Source of the DNA: Verrucomicrobiota bacterium
GTDB lineage: Bacteria; Verrucomicrobiota; Verrucomicrobiia; Chthoniobacterales; UBA10450
Direction: 5' to 3'
NCBI GenBank assembly: GCA_003221295.1
Contig: QHRA01000175.1
Span: forward strand, 1-41,308
Length of the DNA stretch: 41,308 bases
The notes beneath the pieces are model-generated. The model saw only the letters and a list, made by a program, of their open reading frames with translations, was not told where the DNA came from and did no database searches. A program made the translations under genes and the position numbers. Positions 377 to 33,825 of the stretch are shown one piece after another; positions within the stretch are counted from its first letter, which is position 1, and the number at the start of each line of letters is the position of its first letter.

Positions 377-1615
377 TCAGATTGCGGTCGCCACTGGTCC
401 TAGTCGCGCTAGACCGAACGCTTCGTGCGTTAGTCGTGCTGCTTGGTCGGCTTCGGCTTCGTTAATGACGACTGCGATTTTTATTTCGGAAGTCGAGATC
501 AACTGAATATTAATTCCGCCGCGGCCGAGACAGTCGAAGAATTTCGCGGCTACGCCCGAGTGCGAACGCATTCCGATGCCGACCACGCTTAGCTTGGCGA
601 CGCCGCTTTTGGCGATCAACTGCGCTGCTTTAAGTTCCGCAACGATCGGCGTGAGTAGTTTTTTCGCCAGATCGAGGTCGTTTTCGTGGATCGTGAACGA
701 GATGTCGGTCGTTCCATGTTCAGAAACGCTTTGCACAATCATATCGACGACAATGTTCGCTTCCGAAATTGTCGAGAAAATCCGGGCGGCGATCCCGGGT
801 TTGTCGCGAACATCGTCGACGGTAAGCTTTGCCTGTTTGCGGTCGACACTGACTCCACGCACAACCACATCTTCCATGTTGGCCATCTCCTCTTTCGCCA
901 GCGTTCCAGCCGCGTCGTGGAAGCTGGAACGGACCTCAAATGGAACAGAGAATTTTTTCGCGAATTCGACGGCGCGCGACTGCATCACTTTGGAACCCGC
1001 ACCTGCCATTTCCAGCAACTCGTCGTAGGAAATTTCGTCGATTTTTTTTGCGTCACCGATCAGGTGCGGATCGCAGGTAAATACGCCGTCCACATCAGTG
1101 AAAATCTGGCAGGCGTCGGCATTCAGTGCGCCAGCCAGCGCGATGGCAGTCAAATCCGAGCCCCCGCGACCAAGTGTCGTCGTTTCGCCCTCGTTCGTTT
1201 GCCCCTGAAATCCGGCAACGACGACGATGTAATCCTCGTTCAAAAGATAATGGATTTGCCGCGGACTGATGTTCGCGATTTTCGCTTTTGTGTGCGTGCG
1301 GTCGGTCAGGATGCCTGCTTCCGAGCCGGTCAGGGAAACGGCGCGACCACCGAACGCGTTGACTGCCATCGCGACCAGCGCACTGGCGGCGCATTCGCCG
1401 GTGGCGAGCAAAAGATCGAGTTCGCGTGGGGTCGGTTGCGGCGAAACTTCGCGCGCCAACTTGATTAAATTGTCGGTCACGCCAGCCATTGCTGAAACGA
1501 CTGCGACGACGCGGCAACCTTCGCGCTGCGTTTCCAGAATGCGTCGCGCTACGTTACAAATTCTGGCGGCGTCGCCGACCGATGTGCCGCCGTATTTTTG
1601 AACGATCAGGCGCAT
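377..1615 (-). CDS. lysC: Aspartate kinase with C-terminal ACT domains
   Basis: N-terminus MRLIVQKYGGTSVGDAARI; TTLGRGGSDLTAIALA; FTDVDGVFTCDP; ACT-like C-terminus. Confidence 0.96.
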   Translation of the reverse strand: MRLIVQKYGGTSVGDAARICNVARRILETQREGCRVVAVVSAMAGVTDNLIKLAREVSPQPTPRELDLLLATGECAASALVAMAVNAFGGRAVSLTGSEAGILTDRTHTKAKIANISPRQIHYLLNEDYIVVVAGFQGQTNEGETTTLGRGGSDLTAIALAGALNADACQIFTDVDGVFTCDPHLIGDAKKIDEISYDELLEMAGAGSKVMQSRAVEFAKKFSVPFEVRSSFHDAAGTLAKEEMANMEDVVVRGVSVDRKQAKLTVDDVRDKPGIAARIFSTISEANIVVDMIVQSVSEHGTTDISFTIHENDLDLAKKLLTPIVAELKAAQLIAKSGVAKLSVVGIGMRSHSGVAAKFFDCLGRGGINIQLISTSEIKIAVVINEAEADQAARLTHEAFGLARLGPVATAI

Positions 1616-2839: not shown

Positions 2840-5800
2840 ATGCCTGAACTGAGCAAGGAAGAGAAACTGCGACTCTTAACTATTCTGCTTGAGAGCAGGC
2901 ATGGTGACCTGCGCGAGCAAAATCTCAATCGCCAGGGCAAAGGTCACTTTCACGTTTCTGGGATGGGCCACGAAGCGCTCGCTGCCATTTCCATTCAAAT
3001 GCAGGAGAATGATTACATTGTTCCCTTCTACCGCGATCGCGCACTGGTACTCGGTCGTGGAGTCAGCTCGCGACAGCTGGCCATTGATTATTTCGCGAAG
3101 GCCAAAGGCGAAAGCCACGGACGGCAAATGCCGTCGCATTACAGCTGCGCAGAAAAACACATCTGGAGTGTGCCGACCCCAACTGGTTCACAACTTCTGC
3201 CGGCGTGCGGGATAGCGTGGGGAATCAAACTGGATGGGAAAAATGCTGTTGTGGTCGCAACCGTTGGCGATGCTGCAACTCGGCAAGGCGATTTTTACGA
3301 AGCTATTTGTTTCGCGAAAGAAAAGAAATTGCCGCTCTTGTTCGTCGTCGAGGACAACGGTTACGGCATCAGTAGTCCCACCCGCAAAATCAATCCCCGT
3401 GCGCTCGATGTGGTGCAGCCGAATGATTGGCGCGAACTCGACGGCGCCAACGTTGGAGAAACGTATGAGGAAGCCGCGAAAGCTTTCGCGCACATTCGCG
3501 CCGGAAAAGGACCGGTTTTTTTCTGGGCGATGATGGAACGGCTGTCCAGTCACACCAGCTCCGACGACCAGAAGCTTTATCGCAGTGCGGAAGAGCTGAA
3601 AAGATGTGCCGAATGCGATCCGCTAAAGAAATGGAAGGAACAATTGATTGCGGAAGGACTGATCAGCGAATCCGATTACGCCAATCTCGACAACGAAATC
3701 AAAGAACGGATTCGCCGCGAATTTTCGGATGCGGAAAAAGAGCAGGACCCGTCAGCTGACGAACTCTTCAACGAGGTCACAGGAAAATTCCCAGAATTGA
3801 ACGACGAAGTTTTGCCGTCAGGAAAATATCGCATTGGCGATACCATTAACAAAACGTTGCGGCTCGGTCTCGAGCGCGACAAACGTCGAATCATTTTTGG
3901 GGAAGACATTGAAGACCCGAAAGGCGGCGTCTTTCGGCTGACGCAGAAACTTTCGACCGAATTCCCGGATCAGGTTTTCAATTCGCCGCTGGCGGAGTCG
4001 ACCATTCTTGGTGTCGCGTGTGGCCTTGGTTCTTACGGCAAGCGCCCCGTTTTCGAATTACAGTTCATCGACTTCATCGGGCCCGGTTGGAACCAACTGG
4101 TGACCAACATCTGCTGTCTGCGCTGGCGTTCATTTGGCCAGTGGAAATGTCCGATGGTGATTTATGCGCCTTACGGTGCGTATCTGCCGGGCGGAAGTCT
4201 ATGGCACAGCCAGGCAAACGAAGCAGCGCTGGCGCATTATCCGGGCCTTTCGGTGGTGATTCCATCCACGCCGGAAGATGCCGCAGGATTGTTGTGGACC
4301 GCGATGCACTGCGAGGATCCGGTCCTTTTTTTGATTCCAAAACACATGTTCTGGGCGGAACGCGAAAGCGCGGAAGCGATTCGCGCGGTCCCGCTTGGGA
4401 AAGCACGCAAACGCCAGGCTGGATCGAACGTGACGCTGATTACCTGGGGCAACACGGTGGAGAAGGCGCTCGAAGCAATTCAACAAATCGAAAATGAAGC
4501 GAGTATCGAATTGATTGATCTGCGTTCGATTTCCCCATGGGACCGCGAGACAGTCGAGGAATCGGTGCGAAAAACTGGACGGGTTATCATTATCCAGGAA
4601 GACACCGAAAACTGTAGTGTGGGGCAGATGATCATCGCGCATCTGATGTCGCAAACCGATCTTTGGAGCAAGATAGTTAGTCCCCCAATTCTCGTTAGCA
4701 AAGGCAACGTCATGATTGGTTACAACCCGATTTACGAGTACGCCGCGTTGCCTGATATTCAGAGAATCGTGGCTGCCATTCGAAAATCGATTTCGACAAA
4801 GGAACTGCGCGCTGTAGGGGCAGCCGTGTCGGCTGCAGAATCGGACGACGGCGGGCGACGCGCCCGCCCCTACAGCGGCCGAGAGCCGCAGCCGCGGCCG
4901 GCGACCGCGGCTACAAATACGCAAAGCATCACCGTGCCAATCATGGGCGAAGGAATTCGCTCGGCCAAAGTCGTGGCATTGCTGAAGAAGCCGGGAGATC
5001 CCATTGAATTGGACGACGCACTTTGCGAAGTTGAAACCGACAAAGCGGTTTATCCGATTGAATCGTCGTTCGCTGGAACAATGGGCCAATGGAAAGTCGA
5101 AGTCGGCGCCACGGTGGAGATCGGTCAGGAACTGGGAACTATTTTAACGGAATCTGCTGATCAAGTCGAGGCGACGCCGAGGGAATCTGTAGCCGCGGTC
5201 GCTGGCCGCGGCCTGACTCCGGAAAAGCCGCGGCCAGCGACCGCGGCTACAACAAGAGATCCTGCGCTTTCCCCGACCATCACCCGCAAACTCAGCCGCG
5301 TCATTCCCGCCAACCTGCAAATCGACGCGCGCTGGGATGCTATTCGCAAGGTGCGCGACGTGGCGAAAAAGAAAAACGACCGCAACGCGCCCTCGCCATC
5401 GGTTATGATGGCGTGGGCGGTTGTGCGCGCGATGGAAAAACATGCGCCGTTTCGTCGTTTGGTTTTGGAGGATGAGACAATTGTCGAAAACGAAAATTTC
5501 GACCTCGGTATTGCGGTAGCGATCGAAGGCGATCGCCTTGCCACCGCCGTCATCACGGAAGCGAACCGAAAAAGTTGGGCTGAATTCGCCGAGATTTATC
5601 GCAAGACTGTCGATGAGACTCGCGCCGGACGCGTTGATGCGATGAATGCCCCTGTTGTCATCAGCAGTCTCGGCGCCTTTGGCGTGCGGGCGGCAGCACC
5701 GATCGTCGTGCCACCTTCAGTCGGGACGCTCTTCATCGGCTCAGCTCATCGTGAAATGTTGCGCAACGGAAGGAAAAACGAAACGGCGGAGGTGATCACG

Positions 5801-5926
5801 CTTTCCCTCACCTTCGATCATCGGGTCGTGAACGGTGCTGGTGCTGCCAATTTCGCGCACGAAATCAAAGAGCAAATCGAGCAGTTCAAGATTCCGGCGG
5901 CGGAAACGCGCGCCGCCAAATCGTAG
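2840..5926 (+). CDS. Fused 2-oxoacid dehydrogenase: E1alpha - E1beta - lipoyl domain - E2 acyltransferase (branched-chain or pyruvate type)
   Basis: One ORF: E1alpha TPP region (VATVGDAATRQGDFYEAICFA...VVEDNGYGIS), E1beta (FGEDIEDPKGGVFRLTQKL...NSPLAESTILGVACGLG), lipoyl motif (VETDKAVYPIES), E2 catalytic motif (LTFDHRVVNGAGAANF). Confidence 0.92.
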   Translation: MPELSKEEKLRLLTILLESRHGDLREQNLNRQGKGHFHVSGMGHEALAAISIQMQENDYIVPFYRDRALVLGRGVSSRQLAIDYFAKAKGESHGRQMPSHYSCAEKHIWSVPTPTGSQLLPACGIAWGIKLDGKNAVVVATVGDAATRQGDFYEAICFAKEKKLPLLFVVEDNGYGISSPTRKINPRALDVVQPNDWRELDGANVGETYEEAAKAFAHIRAGKGPVFFWAMMERLSSHTSSDDQKLYRSAEELKRCAECDPLKKWKEQLIAEGLISESDYANLDNEIKERIRREFSDAEKEQDPSADELFNEVTGKFPELNDEVLPSGKYRIGDTINKTLRLGLERDKRRIIFGEDIEDPKGGVFRLTQKLSTEFPDQVFNSPLAESTILGVACGLGSYGKRPVFELQFIDFIGPGWNQLVTNICCLRWRSFGQWKCPMVIYAPYGAYLPGGSLWHSQANEAALAHYPGLSVVIPSTPEDAAGLLWTAMHCEDPVLFLIPKHMFWAERESAEAIRAVPLGKARKRQAGSNVTLITWGNTVEKALEAIQQIENEASIELIDLRSISPWDRETVEESVRKTGRVIIIQEDTENCSVGQMIIAHLMSQTDLWSKIVSPPILVSKGNVMIGYNPIYEYAALPDIQRIVAAIRKSISTKELRAVGAAVSAAESDDGGRRARPYSGREPQPRPATAATNTQSITVPIMGEGIRSAKVVALLKKPGDPIELDDALCEVETDKAVYPIESSFAGTMGQWKVEVGATVEIGQELGTILTESADQVEATPRESVAAVAGRGLTPEKPRPATAATTRDPALSPTITRKLSRVIPANLQIDARWDAIRKVRDVAKKKNDRNAPSPSVMMAWAVVRAMEKHAPFRRLVLEDETIVENENFDLGIAVAIEGDRLATAVITEANRKSWAEFAEIYRKTVDETRAGRVDAMNAPVVISSLGAFGVRAAAPIVVPPSVGTLFIGSAHREMLRNGRKNETAEVITLSLTFDHRVVNGAGAANFAHEIKEQIEQFKIPAAETRAAKS
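4813..4874. repeat. Palindromic element, three-way-junction type, in frame inside the E1-E2 fusion gene
   Basis: Outer stem TGTAGGGGC/GCCCCTACA; inner hairpins GCAGCCG-tgt-CGGCTGC and GCGGGCG-acg-CGCCCGC. Confidence 0.85.
4891..4915. repeat. Solo arm of the TGTAGCCGCGG palindrome family, in frame inside the E1-E2 fusion gene
   Basis: GCCGCGGCCGGCGACCGCGGCTACA; exact reverse complement of the arm at 26921-26945. Confidence 0.85.
5188..5251. repeat. TGTAGCCGCGG palindrome, full copy, in frame inside the E1-E2 fusion gene
   Basis: Perfect 25-bp arms TGTAGCCGCGGTCGCTGGCCGCGGC (5188-5212) and GCCGCGGCCAGCGACCGCGGCTACA (5227-5251), 14-nt loop. Confidence 0.95.
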
Positions 5927-23989: not shown

Positions 23990-24122
23990 GTCATCCCGAG
24001 CGCAAGCGAGGGACCCCGCCTACACTCCTGGATCACCGAAGCTAACTTGCGTAACCAACACCGGACTCGCGAGGTTCCTCGGTCCGAGCCGGACTGGCGT
24101 TGTCTGCGCGGCTCGGGATGAC
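23990..24122. repeat. GTCATCCCGAGC-type inverted repeat between gmhB and kdsB
   Basis: Termini GTCATCCCGAGC and GCTCGGGATGAC are perfect 12-bp inverted repeats. Confidence 0.8.
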
Positions 24123-26707: not shown

Positions 26708-27760
26708 TTAGGGAGCGGTCCCGGTCGATGCGCGTTCTAATCGGTCGTTAATCGCCGCGCCAATCCCCTCCTCCGGAACACGTTCGGCCACAATGAGATC
26801 GAGATCTTGCGCGTCCAGTTCGCGCAGCATTCCAAAGAAATTCGCCGCGGCTTCGCGTAGATCGCTTCGCTCACTTAAGTAACGTATCACCGTGAACCCT
26901 ATGAACTTGGCCGGTGCGCTTGTAGCCGCGGTCGCCGGCCGCGGCTTCGGTTTCGAACTCTGATAACTTACGGGGCCGCGGCCAGCGACCGCGGCTACAG
27001 ACGGAAAGCAAAGCGCACCGATTCGTTTGCCGGCTGGTGGCGAGAAATTCTTCAAATCATCAACCACGATCAATTTCGTTCGGGGCGCGTAGTGTGTCGG
27101 CAATTGCCCGGGCGCGCTAACAGGGGCCGATGATGTTTGTTCACGAACTTCAGCAAATGGACGAAGCATCTCGTTCGTGATCGGCCCGCGCCGCAATACC
27201 TCAATCACGCCATTTGTAATTTGAATAATGGTCGATTCGATTCCGTGCTCCGTCGCACCGCCATCAACAATCAGCGGAATACGGCCGCTTAACTCATCGA
27301 ACACGTGTTGCGCCGTTGTTGGGCTGATACGCCCGAACCGATTCGCGCTCGGCGCCGCCAGCGGGCGATTCAGCGTCCTGACCACTTCGCGGAAAACCCG
27401 ATGCGCGCTCATTCGCACCGCCACCGTTTGCAAACCCGCCGTGACAATGTCCGGAACAATTTCGTGCTTCGGAAAAATAATCGTCAACGGCCCGGGCCAG
27501 AATTTTTCCATTAACTTGTGTGCGGCTTGCGATCCAATAATCGCGATCTCGTCCAGCGCCTCCTGATTTGGCAAATGTACAATCAGCGGGTCAAAGCGCG
27601 GACGTTCTTTTGCCTCGAAAATTTTGGCGACCGCATCTGGATTGAGAGCGTCGGCCGCCAGTCCGTAAACCGTCTCAGTCGGGAGAGCGACCACTTCGCC
27701 GTCCCGCAAAAGCCTGATCGCTTTCGCGCACTCATGCGCGGAAACGATTTCCGTTTTCAC
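26708..27760 (-). CDS. L-threonylcarbamoyladenylate synthase (Sua5/YrdC with C-terminal Sua5 domain)
   Basis: [70 protein letters not shown] linker. Confidence 0.93.
26921..26999. repeat. TGTAGCCGCGG palindrome, full copy, in frame inside the Sua5/YrdC gene
   Basis: Arms 26921-26945 and 26975-26999 complementary over 25 bp with one mismatch, 29-nt loop. Confidence 0.95.
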
Positions 27761-32325: not shown

Positions 32326-32350
32326 GGTATCGCCACCGAATTCTGATTTC

Positions 32351-32486
32351 GGGGAGCGCAGGCTGCCAGCCTGCAGTTCGCGGCAGCTTGCCGCGAACAG
32401 TCTTTCCACTTCCCTCGATATTTGCGCCCACAAACATGCATTCGGCAAGGCTGCCGAATGCTACAGGCTGGCAGCCTGTGCTCCCC
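32351..32486. repeat. Three-way-junction palindrome in the ATPase-permease 1 junction
   Basis: Outer arms GGGGAGCGCAGGCTGCCAGCCTG / CAGGCTGGCAGCCTGTGCTCCCC; inner hairpins GTTCGCGGCA-gct-TGCCGCGAAC and ATTCGGCA-aggc-TGCCGAAT. Confidence 0.88.
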
Positions 32487-32497
32487 GGAACCACAGG

Positions 32498-33748: not shown

Positions 33749-33825
33749 TGGAGTAATGGAGTGTTGGAGTAGCGGAGTAATGCTGGCAGCAGCACTCCAT
33801 CACTCCCCTACTCCATTACTCCAAT
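33749..33825. repeat. Imperfect palindrome in the permease 1-permease 2 junction
   Basis: TGGAGTAATGGAGT ... ACTCCATTACTCCA perfect 14-bp outer arms, internal GGAGT/ACTCC iterations. Confidence 0.85.

Follow-up and report, generated by a model that had tools for sequence, protein, structure and literature searches.

In-frame GTAG-type REPINs in linkers and loops of housekeeping enzymes of uncultured soil Verrucomicrobia

The palindromic elements in the linkers of an E1alpha-E1beta-lipoyl-E2 fusion gene, and related elements in the loops of other housekeeping enzymes, are GTAG-type REP sequences whose inverted pairs are REPINs. They are read in frame as part of the host proteins, and the best explanation, with a probability of roughly 85%, is that REPINs spread by RAYT transposases are tolerated in loops after selection on the peptide that they encode. 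The window (the whole stretch of 41,308 nucleotides that was analysed) comes from an uncultured soil verrucomicrobium (Chthoniobacterales), and its close relatives are MAGs. The features discussed below are collected in Table 1.

Table 1. Position of the host genes and their in-frame elements in the window.
Feature	Position	Strand	Remarks
E1alpha-E1beta-lipoyl-E2(catalytic) 2-oxoacid dehydrogenase fusion	2840..5926	+	1028 codons; from Pfam, PDB relatives and family orthologues
REPIN 1 (TGTAG GGGCAGCC..CGCCCCTACA)	4813..4874	+	linker 1, in frame; encodes VGAAVSAAESDDGGRRARPY (residues 659-678)
Solo GTAG-REP, GCGG family, CTAC end 3'	4891..4915	+	encodes PRPATAAT (residues 684-692)
REPIN 2, left REP (TGTAGCCGCGGTCGCTGGCCGCGGC)	5188..5212	+	inverted-repeat arm, GCGG family
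REPIN 2, right REP (GCCGCGGCCAGCGACCGCGGCTACA)	5227..5251	+	encodes PRPATAAT; perfect complement of left arm
Sua5/YrdC threonylcarbamoyl-AMP synthase	26708..27760	-	Pfam Sua5_yciO_yrdC 17-192, Sua5_C 194-345; like the fusion gene, carries an in-frame REPIN
REPIN in Sua5	26921..26999	-	residues 255-280; GCGG family, frame same as in the fusion

The fusion gene and the element family

The reading frame of the fusion has no internal stop over its whole length. Pfam places E1_dh at residues 23-305, Transket_pyr at 334-502, Transketolase_C at 520-604, Biotin_lipoyl at 696-768 and 2-oxoacid_dh at 821-1016; E1beta starts at residue 334 and ends at about 604 by Pfam, and its PDB relatives extend to residue 651. 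The E1beta, lipoyl and E2 catalytic domains of the preliminary description were recovered, together with an E1alpha domain (23-305) that it had left unnamed. A peripheral subunit-binding domain was not found by Pfam in the fusion. The four domains form a single chain throughout the family (orthologues L039-L068). AlphaFold2 modelling of the fusion with eight close orthologues gave a pLDDT of 40.7, too low to interpret.

The residues encoded by the three elements (659-678, 684-692 and 784-804) fall outside the domains, which locates the elements in both interdomain linkers, and both linkers are largely palindrome-made. The preliminary description, which had placed two palindromes and a solo arm in frame between E1beta and lipoyl and between lipoyl and E2 catalytic domains without breaking the reading frame, was right in coordinates and frame and agrees with the Pfam and PDB domain limits. 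The arms of REPIN 2 are perfect 25-nt inverted repeats with 14 nt between them, as it had also claimed for 5188-5251 and as the inverted-repeat computation confirmed. The arms of REPIN 1 (4810-4836 and 4851-4877) are 81% complementary, and this element is of another stem type (GTAG GGGCAGCC..), outside the 25-nt GCGG family. The predicted RNA hairpins have energies of -39.8 kcal/mol (REPIN 1) and -61.7 kcal/mol (REPIN 2). In the closest relative, G009, the assembly (contigs C75/C109, locus L062) ends at linker 1 (residue 655) and restarts at residue 717, so that REPINs may split assemblies within genes.

The arm pattern matches 5 times in the window, versus 0.00 in dinucleotide shuffles. When searched against its own genome as the preliminary description had proposed, the GCGG arm matched at 71 places with up to 3 mismatches (0 for a reversed-pattern control), so it is dispersed and not unique to this locus. 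Each arm consists of a GTAG tag followed by a hairpin, for example TGTAG CCGCGGTC GCC GGCCGCGG (also with the loop GCT); TGTAG CGGCGGTC TCT GACCGTCG has the same layout. The elements share with the GTAG-tagged REP superfamily the terminal GTAG beside a short stem-loop (stem 5-13 bp), the tens or more of dispersed copies per genome (here 71) and a mostly intergenic position (35/44 REPIN-like dimers in unbiased samples). As in REPINs, two inverted REPs and a spacer form one long hairpin, with perfect or near-perfect arms and GTAG outermost at both ends (head-head), and the genome encodes a RAYT with the same REPs on both sides. The elements are GTAG-type REP sequences, and the inverted pairs are REPINs.

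The RAYT protein P0001 (contig C189; L070 1420-1911) scores 117.1 bits against NCBIfam NF047646 (cut-off 80) and has an HVH motif and YVRDNPV; GCGG-type REPs lie on both sides of its gene (C189:14197-14221 and C189:14815-14839). A second Y1-type tyrosine-transposase candidate (contig C87; L074 199-723) has CGGCGGTC REPs (TGTAGCGGCGGTCTCTGACCGTCG) on both sides. The two genes with their neighbouring repeats show at least two REP families, each adjoining its own transposase gene. What mobilises the REPINs is very probably the RAYT transposases that this genome encodes. The P0001 gene itself carries an in-frame REP (..KMPRTTSTATGAIW..).

Other repeats were seen in the window. A degenerate GTAG REP at 348-374, directly behind the stop codon of an aspartokinase-like gene (377-1615, minus strand), is in the usual extragenic position. 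CGTC-like palindromes (GTCATCCCGAGC..) are intergenic at 23990, 24111, 26589 and 26667; G007, G065 and G058 have palindromes of the same kind in IleRS, where they stand in frame within loops. When this kind was checked for like behaviour, 66/75 were intergenic and no phase was concluded. Further long inverted repeats lie at 32344-32493 (44-nt arms, 82% complementary) and 33749-33823 (37-nt arms, 78%).

Insertion and reading phase

Orthologues of the fusion carry REPINs with the stems CCGCGGTC, CCGGGGTC, CCGCGATC, AGGCGGCC.. or GCGGCTGTCC.. in their linkers, or no REPIN. Within one genus, linker 2 of G000 and G003 shares one REPIN peptide or a close variant of it, and linker 2 of G007 and G002 carries an unrelated REPIN. 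The conserved ancestral linker peptide, which the preliminary description had named as one of two observations that would refute its reading, is contradicted by these differences and by the other families, or none, found in the other orthologues. The palindromes could in principle be such an ancestral linker, given a palindromic look by the codon bias of a GC-rich genome, and E2 linkers are usually Ala/Pro-rich; but the perfect 25-bp arms are common to about 70 other genomic places, and same-genus orthologous linkers lack them or have other ones. These genomic copies and differing orthologues refute the explanation, and its probability is negligible.

Comparing orthologues, as had been proposed, revealed clearer empty sites in three other proteins. 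The YchF site between FACNVAESDL and HV.AVQ holds a REPIN in 13/30 genomes and a solo REP or remnant in 3/30, and is empty in 14/30, two of the empty loops being from the same genus. At IleRS site B a 16-codon REPIN occurs only in the own genome among the aligned sequences, and all other covering genomes are empty except G007, which has a different palindrome; the nearest relative, G009, stood outside this alignment, but a match length of 741 bp for 232 query residues points to the insert being shared. At the Sua5 site, match coordinates alone give a spacer of 15-24 bp for many orthologues of other genera and of 102 bp for the window gene. Among solved structures, the best matches to YchF, IleRS and Sua5 are without the inserted residues, the Sua5 alignment to PDB being broken at residues 235-300. 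The empty sites strengthen the insertion reading, and the in-frame elements are shown to be insertions. Exact junctions or target sites could not be fixed for any of them because the loops diverge fast. A second Sua5 copy, 80% identical, is present at a contig end (G000:C83:5947-6612); that genome has 6% estimated contamination, and the contig is possibly foreign.

In the own genome 14/30 REPINs lie inside predicted genes (397 kb, chosen around REPs), and 34/60 arms sampled in the same way are intergenic, a sample biased towards REP-bearing contigs. Unbiased samples of five relatives (~1.7 Mb) gave 9/44 intragenic REPINs, or 8/43 (19%) after one chance-like palindrome was dropped; genes are here the codon-usage calls of this analysis, made on fragmented MAGs. 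The dropped palindrome (L274; GGTAG start, phase 1, 16/24 matches) is without TGTAG and REP stem and was rejected as a chance match. One sample (G025) had no REPIN in 249 kb and another (G010) had seven, all intergenic; the intragenic frequency is thus uneven across the family. Hosts of REPINs or solo REPs, mostly named from inspection of their translations and not from a family scan, include IleRS (twice), UvrA, a PcrA/UvrD-type helicase, SMC, Rho, YchF, MnmA, MiaA, DnaX, an ATP-dependent DNA ligase, QueG-like proteins and other dehydrogenases.

In the sampled genomes 22 intragenic REPINs start with TGTAG; every one is read in the phase GTA|G.. (phase 0), and none in another. Intergenic REPINs read in silico on both strands are open in the GTA|G phase in 57/74 cases, in TGT|AG. 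in 43/74 (58%) and in the third phase (TAG) in 0/74. If the open phases were equally acceptable, 22/22 in one phase would have P = 4e-6; the 22 include orthologous, non-independent cases, and with about 18 distinct sites P is ~4e-5. Ala, Val, Pro, Thr, Gly and Ser make up 69% of the residues of intragenic inserts. Cys and Trp together would be 9.5% in the unused phase versus 0.2% in real inserts, and Arg 18% versus 7%. Among solo-arm readings, which take in arms of REPINs, all 11 GTAG-first arms use the GTA frame, and the 15 CTAC-end arms read RPATAAT (8) or AAAGDRGY (7), and never the Arg-rich phase. Phase 0 is likewise used by all REPINs counted in orthologous E1-E2 linkers (21/21), YchF (7/7) and IleRS (7/7), sets that are non-independent and partly overlap the 22.

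Such a rule could also stem from the insertion mechanism, through a target motif that favours one codon phase, in place of selection on the peptide. The rule is absolute in the sample, beyond what simple purging need give, and TnpA-REP enzymes are reported to recognise specific sequence determinants (PMC8266576). Against this, the CTAC-end arms are read in either of two phases, with only the Arg-rich one avoided, as peptide filtering predicts, and the same rule holds across several REP families with different stems; a mechanistic origin is considered quite unlikely.

In the most likely mechanism REPINs would spread through RAYT, and one that lands in a gene may have two open phases out of three. 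Reading the tag as xxG|TAG always gives a stop, TGT|AGC would give a Cys/Arg/Trp-rich peptide, and GTA|GCx one rich in Ala, Val, Gly, Pro and Thr, which should act as a flexible linker. An insertion would survive if it leaves the downstream frame intact, lies in a loop or interdomain linker and takes the benign phase; those that shift the frame, bear a stop or encode Cys, Arg and Trp would be purged, as the phase rule suggests. Survival in loops and linkers was observed, and later decay and replacement were seen by comparison. REPINs of different families would reach the surviving loops repeatedly, and linkers and loops of housekeeping enzymes would turn over by gain, replacement and decay. 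Neutrality for the enzymes, purging behind the phase rule and active RAYT mobility are what we infer from these patterns.

Reuse of sites and fate of the inserts

When the loop is left out of the YchF tree, at least four changes between the REP and empty states are needed; well-supported branches force three for the empty state. At IleRS site A some genomes carry REPINs of at least two stem types; G065 and G058 have GTCATCCCGAGC.. palindromes there, G033 and G074 have GGAGGGGCGCTTTCC.. ones, and still others have short TCAGGAAAGCAGGAAA units. In G034 and G076 REPINs occupy a third IleRS site. The unrelated kinds of palindrome at one IleRS loop indicate that different palindromes reach the same tolerant loops.

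These comparisons show that sites are reoccupied, although some cases may be conversion between REP stems and not fresh insertion. Taken further, each site could hold one ancient, inherited REPIN that was later converted to other stems by recombination between copies. The same site is occupied across genera, the right arm in YchF is within one genus of GCGG type in G000, G002 and G007 and of GGGG or GGGATC type in G009 and G008, and E1-E2 linker 2 has one REPIN in G007 and another in G000, all of which conversion would explain. It does not explain the interleaving of empty and REPIN states on the YchF tree, though some of these changes may be losses, nor the unrelated palindromes of the IleRS loops (GTCATCCCGAGC.., GGAGGGGCGCTTTCC..), which REP conversion cannot yield. 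A single ancient REPIN per site is therefore held to be unlikely.

Between close relatives the Ka/Ks of linker 1 is 0.92, 2.42, 0.98 and 1.22, and that of the flanking domains 0.03-0.11; linker 2, where comparable, gave 0.33 and 0.16 (few sites). By these ratios the evolution of linker 1 is shown to be relaxed. E1-E2 linkers that bear a REPIN do not exceed in length those in which no palindrome can be recognised (39.6 vs 42.2 and 39.2 vs 39.7 aa), which points to replacement of the linker by the element instead of simple addition. Ratios and lengths together form the pattern expected of tolerated, decaying inserts under a length constraint.

The alternative is that REPINs have been recruited, their Ala/Pro/Thr-rich peptides, or their mRNA hairpins acting as translational pauses between domains, improving multidomain enzymes and linker insertion being favoured. 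REPINs occur in both linkers of the E1-E2 enzyme in several genera, a single frame is used with the residue composition given above (Ala/Val/Pro/Thr/Gly/Ser 69%), and the domains are separated by hairpins of -40 and -62 kcal/mol. But the Ka/Ks of linker 1 is about 1, arms decay without compensation, linkers without recognisable REPINs have the same length, and REPINs are also inserted in YchF, MiaA, MnmA and IleRS, in loops that are not interdomain linkers of this kind. Recruitment is highly improbable. The preliminary description had proposed a mobile family that is either tolerated or recruited; toleration is supported by the relaxed linker 1 and the many unrelated host proteins, and recruitment was not borne out.

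A bolder extension of toleration is that the REPIN/RAYT system forms a standing supply of linkers, with loops of essential enzymes colonised, emptied and recolonised by different palindrome families, and that the element family itself has evolved an open benign phase to live in genes, next to one phase with a stop and one with a harmful peptide; this is offered tentatively and appears somewhat doubtful.

Comparison with known systems

Knowledge of in-frame REPs and RPEs goes back to about 2000. The kind is thus already known, and the additions made here are the phase rule and the reuse of sites. Selection on REP- or RPE-encoded peptides was previously hard to test. A single genome family that supplies inserts by the dozen, sites left empty within a genus, more than one type of REP and a phase bias that is absolute makes filtering and linker reuse countable. 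It also carries a warning: in these MAGs essential enzymes have loops and linkers that derive from mobile elements, and assemblies may break there.

The nearest relatives are the intragenic GTAG REPs of Di Nocera et al. (2013), which according to that paper (PMC3733652) are commonest in Opitutus terrae (Verrucomicrobia), with linker tolerance suggested. They share with the present elements the GTAG tag, a hairpin of short stem and loop, HH dimers and RAYT, insertion inside housekeeping genes with hosts such as uvrA, ligase, RNA helicases and tRNA-modification genes, dimers that encode 20-30 aa, and a modular or linker-like tolerance. The bacteria are different, and so, apparently, are the stems named here (CCGCGGTC, CCGGGGTC, CGGCGGTC and GGGCAGCC), although these may coincide with one of the 24 families of PMC3733652. 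In addition, the present analysis measured a single reading phase, aligned empty sites and found different families in the same loops; same-site insertion is mentioned in the text of PMC3733652 for Xanthomonas recB only. That text has no frame rule, and its supplementary REP-peptide table, outside the comparison, may already show one. Save for the Xanthomonas recB remark, the portions of the literature consulted gave no earlier description of a restriction to one phase, or of a given loop that holds palindromes of different families in different genera.

The REPINs of Bertels and Rainey (2011; PMC3116915) are similar in that two inverted REPs and a spacer form one long hairpin, dispersed in a genome with a RAYT. 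In Pseudomonas they are described as random in extragenic space (PMC3116915), whereas here 8/43 (19%) are intragenic in the unbiased samples.

The Rickettsia palindromic elements (RPEs; Ogata et al., reviewed in PMC2229807), cited as precedent in the preliminary description, are likewise short palindromes in frame in many unrelated conserved proteins, and orthologues with inserts at the same locus are known (PMC3767692). An RPE insert in guanylate kinase is translated and the enzyme is active (PMC2229807). As in RPEs, the elements are inserted in frame in conserved proteins with empty orthologues (YchF, IleRS, Sua5). According to PMC3733652, RPE-4 and RPE-6 are CGTC repeats without a dedicated transposase, whereas the window elements are tagged GTAG, in all elements of the finding, and have a RAYT; other RPEs are 100-150 bp in length, and the GTAG REPINs 48-80 bp. 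The precedent thus stands as a functional analogue and not as the same family: the window elements work like RPEs without being RPEs.
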